6,744 bases of DNA from Actinomycetota bacterium (GTDB taxonomy: Bacteria; Actinomycetota; Thermoleophilia; Gaiellales; Gaiellaceae): the NCBI GenBank assembly GCA_013812465.1, contig JACCTK010000244.1, forward strand, positions 1 to 6,744. Reading direction: 5' to 3'. Below the pieces are notes generated by a model. That model saw nothing but the letters and a program-made list of their open reading frames with translations. It was not told the origin of the DNA and searched no databases. Positions 2,499-5,791 of this stretch are shown one piece after another. Each line of letters starts with the position of its first letter. The first letter of the stretch is position 1. Made by a program: the position numbers and the translations under genes.

Positions 2499-4384
2499 CA
2501 CGCGCGCACGATGAGTACGCATGGGCGCCGACCGCGGAGCAGCTCGCGGACGCGAACGTCGTCCGCCTGGCCGGCAAGCTCGGTTGCGACGACTACGCCG
2601 GGCTGCACCGCTTGTCTGTTGAAGAGCCAGACCGATTCTGGCGCGCGGTGCGAGACGATCTCCGGATCCCGCTCGCGCGGGATTGGGACGCCGTCTCGAA
2701 CGACTCGCGAGGGATCGAGTGGACGACCTGGTTCGAAGGCGCGCGGCTCAATCTCGCCCACGCCTGCGTGCATCGGTGGGCTGACGAGCAACCGGATGCG
2801 CTCGCCGCGGTTTTCCAGGGCGAGGACGGGACGCGTGACGAGTGGTCGTTTGCCGGTCTCTCCATGCGGGTCGTGCAGCTGGCCGAGGCCCTGGCGGCGC
2901 TCGGTGTCACCGCCGGCGACCGCGTCGCGCTCTACATGCCGATGTGCCCGGAGGTTGCCGTGGCCGCACACGCCTGCGCGCACATCGGCGCCGTGCAGGT
3001 GCCGATCTTCTCGGGGTTCGCGGCGCCGGCGATCGTGCAACGGCTGCGTGACTCGGAGGCCAAGGTCGTGATCACCGCCGACTACTCGCTCCGTCGCGGC
3101 GCCCGAATACCCATGCGCGAGACGATCGACGAGGCTGTGCGTGCGTCGCCTTCTGTCGAGCACGTCGTCGAGTGGTCACGCGCCGATCGGACCTGGAATG
3201 TCGAGTTGGGTCCGGGCGAGCTGCCGGCGCTCGAGCTCGAGAGCGAGGCGCCGTACCTGCTCGCGTACACGTCCGGGACGACCGGGAAGCCGAAAGGAGC
3301 GCTCCACGTCCAAGGCGGGTTCCTGCTCTCGATCGCTCGCGAGGCGGCCTACCAGTCGGATCTGAAGCGCGGCGACCGCGTCCTCTTCGCGACCGACATG
3401 GGTTGGATCATGGGGTCGTGGACCGTCGTCGGAGCCGGCGCAGCGGGGGCGGCCGTCGTCTACATGGAGGGCGCGCCGGACTGGCCCGCGGACCGTCTCT
3501 GGCGCATCGTCGAATCCGAGCGCGTGACGATGCTCGGCGTGTCACCGACGCTCATCCGCGCGCTGATCCCCAAGGGCGAGCCTGTTGCCGACCTCTCGTC
3601 GCTTCGAGCGGTGACGACTACCGGAGAGCCCTGGAACCGCGGTCCCTACGACTGGCTGAACGAGCACGTGTGTGGCGCGGGGCGGATCCCGATCGTGAAC
3701 ATCTCCGGCGGGACCGAGGTCGGCGCGTGCTTCCTCGGAGTGTCGATGATGGCGCCGACGAAACCGTGCTCGCTGGGATTCCCCGCTCTGGGACAGGACA
3801 TGGATGTCGTCGACAACGCGGGCCGCCCGGTACGTGGAGAGGTCGGAGAGCTTGTCTGCAAGCGGGCCTGGCCAGGCATGACACGCGGCTTGTGGCGGGA
3901 TCCCGAGCGCTTCCTCGAGACGTACTGGGAGCGCTTCCCGGGCGTCTGGACTCACGGAGACTGGGCCTCTGTCGACGAGGACGGCTACTGGTTCCTGCAC
4001 GGCCGCTCTGACGACACGCTCAACATCGCGGGCAAGCGGATCGGGCCTGCCGAGCTCGAGTCCGCCGCGGTGAACCATCCTGCGGTCGTCGAGGCGGCGG
4101 CGATCGGCGTGCCGCACGAGGTGAAGGGCGAGGTACCCTGGCTCTTCTGTGTGCTCGAGTCGGAGGAAGAGGTCGGACCTGAGGATGTGTCTCGCGCGGT
4201 GACGGACGAGCTCGGGAAGTCGTTCAAGCCGGAGCGCGTGCTCTTCGTCGCGGCCCTCCCGAAAACGCGGAGCGCGAAGATCGTGCGACGAGCCGTGCGG
4301 GCCACTGCGCTCGGAGAGGATCCTGGTGACCTCTCGACGCTCGAGAATCCCGAGTCGCTCGAGGAGATAGCGCGTGTCGTCTGA
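2471..4384 (+). CDS. Acetyl-CoA-synthetase-like AMP-forming acyl-CoA ligase
   Basis: This 637-aa ANL-family enzyme would activate a carboxylic acid with ATP and CoA through an acyl-adenylate. After an acetyl-CoA-synthetase-type N-terminal region (PDRFW, WFEGARLNLAHACV) come the phosphate loop YTSGTTGKPKG (266-276), NISGGTE (410-416), the ATP-ribose aspartate in THGDW (D497), the hinge region GRSDDTLNIAGKRIG (511-525) and PKTRSAK with the catalytic lysine K603. Length and end match the ACS subfamily. True acetyl-CoA synthetases have WWQTE where this protein has SGGTE, so the tryptophan that closes the acetate pocket is replaced by Gly. A larger acid is therefore likely. GTG at 2471 is the only usable start that keeps the conserved WAP region. 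It has no clear Shine-Dalgarno and overlaps the operator, so leaderless translation is possible. It overlaps the downstream SDR gene by 11 bp. Confidence 0.9.
   Translation: MNTKLAATNSRAHDEYAWAPTAEQLADANVVRLAGKLGCDDYAGLHRLSVEEPDRFWRAVRDDLRIPLARDWDAVSNDSRGIEWTTWFEGARLNLAHACVHRWADEQPDALAAVFQGEDGTRDEWSFAGLSMRVVQLAEALAALGVTAGDRVALYMPMCPEVAVAAHACAHIGAVQVPIFSGFAAPAIVQRLRDSEAKVVITADYSLRRGARIPMRETIDEAVRASPSVEHVVEWSRADRTWNVELGPGELPALELESEAPYLLAYTSGTTGKPKGALHVQGGFLLSIAREAAYQSDLKRGDRVLFATDMGWIMGSWTVVGAGAAGAAVVYMEGAPDWPADRLWRIVESERVTMLGVSPTLIRALIPKGEPVADLSSLRAVTTTGEPWNRGPYDWLNEHVCGAGRIPIVNISGGTEVGACFLGVSMMAPTKPCSLGFPALGQDMDVVDNAGRPVRGEVGELVCKRAWPGMTRGLWRDPERFLETYWERFPGVWTHGDWASVDEDGYWFLHGRSDDTLNIAGKRIGPAELESAAVNHPAVVEAAAIGVPHEVKGEVPWLFCVLESEEEVGPEDVSRAVTDELGKSFKPERVLFVAALPKTRSAKIVRRAVRATALGEDPGDLSTLENPESLEEIARVV
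4361..4366 (+). promoter_or_regulatory. Ribosome binding site that fixes the SDR start
   Basis: GAGGAG lies inside the 3' end of the ligase gene, 7 nt before the GTG at 4374. It supports the GTG as the true SDR start and implies that the two proteins are made from one message by coupled translation. Confidence 0.7.
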
Positions 4385-5138
4385 CCGGCTCGACGGGGTC
4401 GCGCTGGTGACCGGCGGCGGCCGCGGGATCGGCGCGTCGATCGCGCGGGAGCTGACCGAGGCGGGCATGCGCGTGGCGGTGACGGCGCGCACGCGCGAGC
4501 AGGCGGAGGCGGTCGCCGCGGAGATCGACGGCCTCGCGCTCGTCGGCGACGTCTCGCGCGCAGACGATGTCGAGGAATGGGTCGAGCGCACCGCGAAGGA
4601 GCTCGGTCCGATCGACCTCCTCGCGGCCAACGCGGGCATCGGCAGCCCGGAATGCGCCACATGGGAGGTCCCGGTCGAGGATTGGTGGGGGGTGCTCGAG
4701 GTCAACGTCCTCGGTGTGCACCTCTCGTGCCGCGCGGTGATTCCTGGCATGCTCGAGCGCGGAAGCGGGCGCATCGTCATCACCGGTAGCGGCGCCGCGT
4801 ATCTGCCCGGAGGAGGCAGTCAGACCGCATACCCGACGAGCAAAGCCGCGGTATGTCGCTATGCGGAGACGCTCGCCAACGAGCTCCGCGATCGTGTTCC
4901 GGTGTTCGTGATCAGTCCCGGCCTCGTTCGCACCGATATGACCGAGCGTTTCGGCGACGACATGCCATGGACCCCGCCCGAGCTTGCTCCGGAGCTCGTG
5001 CGCGTGCTCGCATCAGGCCGCGCGGATTCGCTCGCGGGCCGCTACCTGCACGCGGAGCACGACGACATCGAGGACCTGATTCGTCGCGCCGACGAGGTCC
5101 TCGAGAACGACTTGAACGCGATTCGGCTCCAGCGCTGA
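4374..5138 (+). CDS. SDR family NAD(P)-dependent oxidoreductase
   Basis: This is a 254-aa classical short-chain dehydrogenase/reductase, the usual length for the family. The Rossmann dinucleotide motif is TGGGRGIG (13-20), with the adenine-pocket D59-V60 and NAG (86-88). The catalytic tetrad is complete: N111, S139, Y153 and K157 (YPTSK). SPGLVRTDM follows the active site, as in the family. The second beta-strand ends in ART (38-40) rather than with an acidic residue, which favours NADP(H), though this is only a rule of thumb. The GTG start overlaps the ligase stop by 11 bp and has a strong Shine-Dalgarno. Tight coupling with an acyl-CoA ligase suggests a hydroxyacyl/ketoacyl or alcohol/ketone step in the same pathway. 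It resembles FabG-type proteins, but the substrate cannot be read from the sequence. Confidence 0.9.
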   Translation: MSSDRLDGVALVTGGGRGIGASIARELTEAGMRVAVTARTREQAEAVAAEIDGLALVGDVSRADDVEEWVERTAKELGPIDLLAANAGIGSPECATWEVPVEDWWGVLEVNVLGVHLSCRAVIPGMLERGSGRIVITGSGAAYLPGGGSQTAYPTSKAAVCRYAETLANELRDRVPVFVISPGLVRTDMTERFGDDMPWTPPELAPELVRVLASGRADSLAGRYLHAEHDDIEDLIRRADEVLENDLNAIRLQR

Positions 5139-5153
5139 AGCACTCGGGCGCGC

Positions 5154-5321
5154 TTAAGGGCCTGTCAAAAAAGCCGTCCGGGGCGCCTGGCACGCGTGAC
5201 GCACCGCGATGCGGCGTTCTCAGTCGCGCCAATATGGCTCATATTGGCGCTCCCTGCGTCCTTGCCTCACGGCACGTCCCGCGTATCATCCACCGCGGCG
5301 ACTTTCTGGACAGGCCCTTAA
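5154..5321. mobile_element. 168-bp palindromic MITE-like element with 13-bp terminal inverted repeats
   Basis: TTAAGGGCCTGTC (5154-5166) is exactly complementary to GACAGGCCCTTAA (5309-5321). The centre is a second exact repeat, GCGCCAATATG (5226-5236) with CATATTGGCGC (5240-5250) around GCT. Between them the arms stay aligned on the same centre: ACGCGTGACG (5192-5201) faces CGTCCCGCGT (5275-5284) with one mismatch. The whole unit is therefore one long imperfect hairpin. It encodes nothing credible. TTAA at each end could be a target duplication or part of the repeat. It starts 15 bp after the SDR stop and fills most of the gap before the next gene. A non-autonomous transposable element fits best; a dispersed palindromic repeat or a long hairpin RNA are alternatives. 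Confidence 0.6.
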
Positions 5322-5356: not shown

Positions 5357-5791
5357 GTGCCGTTCTTCATCTGCCCCAACTGCAAGCAGCGGTCGGTCGA
5401 CAGCGATGGCTACGACGGCCTTTCCATGCAGGCGGTGCAATGCCGGAGCTGCGGCTTCGGGTTCCTCTATGAGCTGCTCGAGGACTACTACCCCGCCCCG
5501 GAGACGGGGTTCGTCGTCTGCGACCGCGAGGCCCGCGTGCTCGCTGTCGGCCGGGGCGTGTTCGAGCTGACCGGCTATCGGGACGCCGATCTCATGGGCC
5601 GCGAAGTCGGCGAGGCGCTCGCGCTCTCGGATCCATCCCCGATCGACGTCGTCCAGGAGTGGGGCGTCCGAAAGATGGGGCAGCAGCTTGCGATCCGCAC
5701 GCGCGCCGGGCTGCCGAAGGCCGTGACCGCTGATTTCTTCCCCGCCTACGACGACGATGGCGGGCTGATGGTCGCTCTGACGCCCCGCTAA
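5357..5791 (+). CDS. Small zinc-ribbon plus PAS domain protein
   Basis: This is a 144-aa protein with two parts. The N-terminus carries CPNC (C6, C9) and CRSC (C29, C32), 19 residues apart, which fits a four-cysteine zinc ribbon. A single PAS domain follows from about residue 50 to the end, with the PAS opening GFVVCDREARVLAVG, the ELTGY helix (70-74) and the LMGREVGE turn (79-86). It ends in strands (VTADFFPAYDD, GLMVAL). There is no kinase, GGDEF, HTH or membrane segment, so it would act as a cytoplasmic sensor or adaptor passing a signal to a partner. The frame is open far upstream, through the palindromic element and into the SDR gene. I chose GTG 5357 because the cysteine motif begins right after it and upstream sequence is not protein-like. 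Ligand and partner are unknown. Confidence 0.75.
   Translation: MPFFICPNCKQRSVDSDGYDGLSMQAVQCRSCGFGFLYELLEDYYPAPETGFVVCDREARVLAVGRGVFELTGYRDADLMGREVGEALALSDPSPIDVVQEWGVRKMGQQLAIRTRAGLPKAVTADFFPAYDDDGGLMVALTPR

Follow-up and report, generated by a model that had tools for sequence, protein, structure and literature searches.

In the usual picture, a MITE consists of the ends of an insertion sequence (IS) around a disposable middle. ERIC and Correia elements, about 100-170 bp long, are imperfect palindromes found at TA targets. Prokaryotic MITEs are described as small, geneless, intergenic elements with terminal inverted repeats (TIRs) and short direct repeats, are moved in trans by a related IS, and would give transcripts that form strong stem-loops (PMC10969869; PMC5896051 for Coxiella QMITE1/2). 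ERIC and Correia elements are situated in mRNAs (PMC10969869). The bcr repeats of the Bacillus cereus group are MITE-like and are found in UTRs and mRNAs and within operons; several of these families conserve their secondary structure and possibly function as RNA (PMC3446304).

Here we discuss a hairpin family of soil actinobacteria represented by one copy, at 5154-5321, in a 6,744-nucleotide stretch of Gaiellaceae DNA (the window). The family has the basic anatomy of the MITEs in these reports, but differs in that the ends vary by subfamily while an internal loop is kept. The bcr repeats (bcr1 and others) belong to another phylum, and the likeness to them is drawn from their description. We know of no swapping of TIRs around one core among bcr repeats. 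ERIC and Correia elements resemble the hairpins in size and TA targets; they too belong to other lineages and are likened to them by description. The hairpin family inverts the usual MITE picture, having a near-constant middle across many genomes of the class and variable ends, and it is tolerated between ribosomal-protein genes. Should its fold work at the RNA level or as a site for a protein, the element would be a parasite with its own function.

Our main reading, to which we give a probability of roughly 0.8, is that 5154-5321 is a non-autonomous MITE-like hairpin, about 160 bp long and bordered by a duplicated TTAA, which an IS5-type DDE transposase moved in trans. We file it as a variant of the MITE-like elements, and as new because the core rather than the ends is conserved.

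Anatomy and Predicted Fold of the Palindrome

The first-pass annotation, made from the letters of the window alone, described a unit with exact 13-bp ends and an exact 11-bp core, and an inverted-repeat search returned both. The 13-bp repeats lie at 5154-5166 and 5309-5321 (extended arms of 23 bp at 87%), and they are the sole exact 13-bp pair in the window with arms at most 150 bp apart (0.105 expected, 200 shuffles). The core has 11-bp arms at 5226-5236 and 5240-5250 around a loop at 5237-5239; 11-bp pairs by themselves are unremarkable, with 1.4 expected by chance. The centre that ends and core were said to share holds to within half a base (5237.5 vs. 5238). A plainly palindromic middle does not hold: ungapped self-complementarity of the unit is 64 of 168 positions, against a mean of 48.0 (sd 9.1) for 168-mers of the window and a maximum elsewhere of 86. 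The unit can still be folded as the single long hairpin that was proposed, with the qualification that the predicted folds need bulges and G-U pairs. The predicted RNA fold of the minus strand has -105.8 kcal/mol (z -9.6) and that of the plus strand -85.8 kcal/mol (z -6.4), values that none of 200 shuffles equalled in either case; the predicted DNA fold of the plus strand has -47.5 (z -5.4).

The features of the element are as follows.

5154 to 5157, no strand: left TTAA, target-site duplication; a single TTAA stands at the empty site of locus L001, and the true length is 2-4 bp
5158 to 5176, plus strand: left terminal inverted repeat, GGGCCTGTC...; similar ends occur in L069, L070, L088, L089, L108 and L109
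5177 to 5214, plus strand: left outer arm, pairing with 5265-5298 with bulges in the folds; its sequence varies by subfamily
5215 to 5225, plus strand: conserved core loop, left side; family consensus from alignments CGTCCTCRGTC, with T at 5218 here
5226 to 5250, plus strand: terminal stem-loop with 11-bp arms and a 3-nt loop; covariation among copies
5251 to 5264, plus strand: conserved core loop, right side, TCCCTGCGTCCTTG; the best conserved part of the family
5265 to 5298, plus strand: right outer arm, from the folds
5299 to 5317, plus strand: right terminal inverted repeat, ...GACAGGCCC, from the inverted-repeat search
5318 to 5321, no strand: right TTAA, target-site duplication, from the L001 empty site
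5200 to 5277, minus strand (the better-folding one): matched by covariance model R1 with 80.8 bits and E 1.3e-16, the 53 training sequences of R1 including the window copy

As annotated, the element is geneless and sits between two genes: on one side an SDR gene at 4374-5138, on the other a small gene of PAS-like type at 5357-5791. Its 160-168 bp are crossed by mechanical ORFs alone, and Pfam-matched genes lie outside. The product of the downstream gene is 144 residues long and has Cys pairs, PAS-like relatives and 5837 homologues; the protein of 5357-5791 itself has no Pfam match. Elsewhere in the window, a perfect inverted repeat (GTGGGGGAACC/GGTTCCCCCAC, 235-261) lies past the 3' end of a TetR gene and is perhaps a terminator.

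Insertion between the SDR and PAS-like Genes

An alignment of 17 sequences, the window's own and 16 of 120 listed relatives, led to 48 loci in named genomes. L001 and L002, at 95% protein identity, are the nearest and come from uncultured actinobacteria; some others belong to Gaiellaceae or Thermoleophilia. Genomes G001, G002, G006 and G010 (Thermoleophilia) are those of loci L001, L002, L006 and L025.

The annotation had proposed a search for orthologous gaps that lack the palindrome, and L001 has such a gap. Its sequence is GCGCTTAACTCC; at the corresponding place the window carries GCGCTTAA, then 160 bp, then TTAACTCC. One TTAA at the empty site corresponds to a TTAA on each side of the element. 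Since this gap is empty and the DNA adjoining the element aligns to L001 at 79-85%, the window copy represents, relative to L001, an inserted segment of about 160 bp. The insertion point lies just past the stop codon of the SDR gene. The duplication could be TA, TTA/TAA or TTAA, and this ambiguity in length (2-4 bp) counts against the MITE reading.

The gap in L002, before a PAS-like gene that starts at 3626, also lacks the window element and holds 36 bp instead, which match the left arm of L086, a copy from another subfamily, at 97% identity and are followed by AAGCTCTTAACTCC. The piece is thus what deletion has left of another hairpin, inserted independently at this site, and the gap has been struck at least two times. 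A cleanly empty site is therefore present in just one of the two closest relatives, which is a further point against the MITE reading. In L017, a copy matching the model precedes the same PAS-like gene; its different ends and different upstream gene indicate an independent insertion. Flank comparison gave further cases of one gap occupied in two genomes by copies with differing ends (L060/L089 vs. L075; L092 vs. L126). Such repeated use of one gap by different subfamilies speaks for the main reading.

Copy Number and Spread of the Family

The multiple copies that the annotation expected in relatives are present. blastn with the window element gave 24 matches at E<=1 in G001, 34 in G002 and 28 in G006, and 1 to 9 in each of eight other genomes, the weakest of which are probably chance. 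Among the 48 named loci, the covariance model of the core matched L017 (E 1e-15) and L020 (3e-6), and weakly L034 (0.046) and L033 (0.43). Three draws of genomes, all made under stricter filters and each including its centre, known beforehand to match, differed in how many genomes matched: for the family of G002, 37 of 41; for the class of G322 (a draw that takes in G010), 16 of 41; and for the phylum, with 11 candidates scored per genome, 24 of 396. Fuller scoring spanned 22 genomes, mostly picked for earlier matches, and gave 52 model matches in G322, 29 in G006, 24 in G001, 23 in G002 and 15 in G331; it gave none in the single-contig Gaiella genome G009.

The copies that we fetched are mostly 160-170 bp long and have constant geometry and differing ends, among them GGGCCTGTCC, GAACTCGWWTCA, GAGCCTCTAACAC, GTGCTYCCCGCCG, GTGGTCTCTCCGG, GAGCTCGCTTCAG, GGAGGACTTGGCG and others. 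The exact core pattern, which is over-strict, was absent from the contigs searched, viral and genomic, and plasmids and phages gave no match to the element by blastn. One copy lies in a contig of a viral collection (L222:587-665) beside sequence that is terminase-like by eye; this contig may be a host fragment. The family is undescribed in the literature searched, in which subscription journals are thinly covered.

Target Duplications, Ends and a Candidate Insertion-Sequence Partner

A recent burst of copies in G322 bears on mobility. Of 21 copies, all from G322, three without a recognised end were left out; identical 3-bp flanks, TTA or TAA, surround 14 of the 18 copies with both ends, and the other four, which lack a 3-bp duplication, weigh against the MITE reading. 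Twenty fetched G322 copies have near-identical interiors and two end types, and one mixed copy (L201) has one end of each type, which suggests that ends have been exchanged between copies.

A candidate partner is present in G002. It is an 898-bp IS (L214:928-1825) that has GAACTCGAATCAAAATGA ends and a TTA at either flank, and its two reading frames gave matches to DUF4096, to DDE_Tnp_1 and to NF033580, the IS5 model of NCBIfam. Two hairpin copies of the same genome, L095 and L100, bear GAACTCGAATCAGAATGA, ends in common with this IS. The ends and TTA duplication of this IS5-family member thus match those of the GAACTCG subfamily of hairpins; the hairpins differ in having no transposase, and the model did not detect the core in L214. 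The annotation had suggested searching for an IS with shared ends, and one exists for this sister subfamily. For the window's own GGGCCTGTC ends, none was found among the matches listed, for 5 of 12 genomes and for G002 incompletely, which tells against the MITE reading, as do the transposase-domain matches (DDE_Tnp_1 in three of six genomes, DUF4096 in one of ten). In G006:C144, a facing pair of ends stands 960 bp apart, with three mismatches per end.

The copies, the empty site with its duplication, the TA-type targets and the IS5 partner of one sister subfamily support the earlier proposal of a MITE moved in trans, the movement in trans being the step that we infer. A DDE transposase of the IS5 kind would recognise the terminal repeats and target TA-containing sites, which are common at stop codons and in gaps of these GC-rich genomes. 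The window's subfamily would be served by the same kind of transposase, and, if ends are exchanged, several transposases could serve one core lineage.

A different kind of mobility is known for REP/REPIN elements with RAYT, which are many-copy intergenic palindromes like the hairpins (PMC3733652, PMC3116915). We regard it as very improbable that the hairpins are REP/REPIN-like palindromes moved by a Y1 (RAYT) transposase. A Y1_Tnp match is present in three of six genomes, but G322, which has the most hairpins of the six, G001 and G331 have none, and the RAYT/REP identity is disfavoured for this reason. The hairpins differ from REP/REPIN elements also in length (165 bp vs. 20-40) and in having target duplications.

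A Conserved Core between Diverging Arms

A plain MITE should retain its ends and lose its middle; the reverse is seen here, which counts against the MITE reading. Among 81 core spans, 17 fell outside 46-54 bases; 63 were kept, 62 folded, 61 aligned and 53 used in the core alignment. In the 61 aligned copies, mean pairwise identity stands at 0.45 for the outer arms and 0.62 for the terminal stem; the core loop has 0.83 on one side and 0.92 on the other. The core reads, on the minus strand, GCWAGGACGCAGGGAG, stem-loop, CGACYGAGGACG. Its conservation is partly built in because the copies were gathered by likeness to the window copy or to the core. A check made from the ends only took the facing GGGCCTGTCCGGAAAG-like ends separated by 140-210 bp among the matches listed for G001, G002 and G006: all eight such pairs enclose the core. 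Among the same matches, a 59-bp end pair in G002:C240 is too short for it.

The stems of the core covary. In the 53 copies, 85.1% of cells pair (72.0 in shuffled controls), two-sided changes occur in 20 of 29 pairs, with 200 such cells against 66.7 shuffled and 26-45 for slid structures, and the covariation score is 0.375 against 0.154 shuffled, counts that are inflated by related copies and refer to a structure derived from the same copies. Selection probably keeps the core as a folded single strand, the model strand, which corresponds to the minus strand of the window, for a putative function.

In L072, L086, L090, L102, L112 and L119, the core loop has an extra small hairpin of the CCCCAGAAAGTGC...GCACTTTCTGGGG type, inserted always at one position; these copies belong to two different end-subfamilies. 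Many subfamilies have below the core another internal loop that recurs, GCGAAAAGC against GCTTTGCAGCC, as in many copies of L158-L177. Coreless palindromes of 53-68 bp with the same ends are present at L182:1501-1553 and L183:1501-1568 in G322 and at G002:C240:16123-16181; the two in G322 look like internal deletions of the hairpin. A hammerhead-like CUGAnGA in the core loop was considered and dropped by eye, one of its bases varying (C or T).

Strand Bias of the Fold

The model strand folds better than its complement in all 62 folded copies, in 22 of 23 that come from 20 other regions (the exception is L174) and, with RNA and DNA parameters alike, in 109 of 112 cleaned copies, a set that overlaps the other two. 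The 112 are what is left of 136 pattern matches after removal of 17 with a poor loop, two duplicates, three cut copies and two with N. When the core is replaced and the arms are folded alone, the bias remains in 60 of 62 copies, with G-U in 292 of 2986 pairs on the model strand and 81 of 2757 on the other.

Two readings of this bias have been weighed. One puts RNA first: the element would encode a structured RNA transcribed from the model strand, such as a protein-binding small RNA, its mobility would be the means of spread, and the host or the element would depend on the RNA. The widely kept loop sequence, the covarying stems, the better folding of the model strand in nearly all copies, the persistence of this bias in the arms and compensatory changes at one orthologous locus speak for it. 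We nonetheless hold it to be rather unlikely. In a strand-neutral alignment of the 112 copies, the model strand has 471 G-T against 189 A-C mismatches, and also 337 G-A against 84 C-T and 145 G-G against 67 C-C; all G mismatches are thus in excess, the G-U excess is no proof of RNA, and a purine skew may explain the bias. That DNA parameters give an equal bias, and that no Rfam family reaches the gathering threshold for the window copy (best E 1.4, far under the cut-offs), also tell against an RNA.

The other reading stays at the level of DNA: the palindrome would be kept by template switching from arm to arm or by gene conversion among copies, the bias would reflect selection for weak structure in mRNA, and the core would be a DNA site for the transposase or a host factor. 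It is a serious contender, although we would put it at somewhat under even odds. The mixed ends of L201 and the short versions with internal deletions agree with it, as does the equal bias with DNA parameters. Template switching leaves the invariant unpaired loop unexplained.

The direction of neighbouring genes, called in the 112-copy set from codon-position GC alone, bears on both readings. Where the neighbours are co-directional, their mRNA corresponds to the other strand in 47 cases and to the model strand in 17 (p 0.0002). This orientation places the weaker strand in mRNA, which favours the DNA-level reading, and it counts against an RNA made from the model strand. The sign of the bias, however, is the same throughout: the model strand folds better in 45 of the 47 copies, in 16 of the 17 whose neighbours' mRNA is the model strand, which favours RNA, and in 30 of 30 between opposed genes, convergent or divergent; the last two results argue against selection on mRNA. 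A bias that is the same whatever the direction of the neighbours is a property of the element. It would reflect selection for folding of the model strand or, alternatively, selection against folding of the mRNA strand over the family's history. A UTR regulator of fixed orientation, considered for the whole family, was rejected, as neighbours occur in all four orientations.

Copies within Housekeeping Operons

Copies often occupy an entire intergenic gap, the stop codon being supplied or touched by the element. In a set of 21 copies from 18 further genomes, 16 adjoin housekeeping genes by eye and ten of those ribosomal-protein genes, counts that need not mean enrichment. Pfam on ten flanking pieces gave S4, S11, S9, L5 (twice), L24, L14, RpoB, RpoC and a KH domain, which we read as S3; neighbours in trp, nuo and suf and those identified as S7, L16, L23/L4 and S19 were named by eye. 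Both flanks run opposite to the model strand in 14 of the 21 copies, with it in three, and are mixed or open in four; the 14 of 17 co-directional cases are in line with the DNA-level reading of the bias.

Some copies could have been co-opted as regulatory parts of host operons (ribosomal proteins, rpoB-rpoC, nuo, suf, trp), which we think unlikely. In its favour, copies adjoin ribosomal-protein genes in several genomes, and a copy between L5 and S14 (S14 by eye) has the same place, arms and orientation in G001, G010 and G122. But insertions are easiest to spot in such operons, which are long, conserved and present in every genome, and gaps have been struck repeatedly by different subfamilies, so that recurrence may reflect a site preference. 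The L5-S14 copies, moreover, have more broken pairs (4, 9, and 11) than two-sided pair changes (2, 5, and 5).

These L5-S14 copies bear also on the annotation's view that conservation at orthologous loci with compensatory changes would indicate an RNA instead of a mobile element. Some compensatory changes are indeed present. Orthologous conservation and covariation of the core occur together in this family, so the alternative was drawn too sharply, and the element is mobile while its structure is also maintained. We tentatively suggest, as an idea that is less likely true than false, that the conserved folded core, a module working as RNA or as a single strand, and not the ends defines a class-wide mobile element, that the ends are swapped so that one IS5-like transposase after another carries it, and that some copies are retained in operons for ribosomal proteins and RNA polymerase through an effect of the fold. 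One copy lies between rpoB and rpoC (L175, G057:C532:12300-12377), and three copies share a 2.3-kb stretch of one ribosomal-protein operon, beside L14, L24 and L5 (L170, G111:C26:1-3000).
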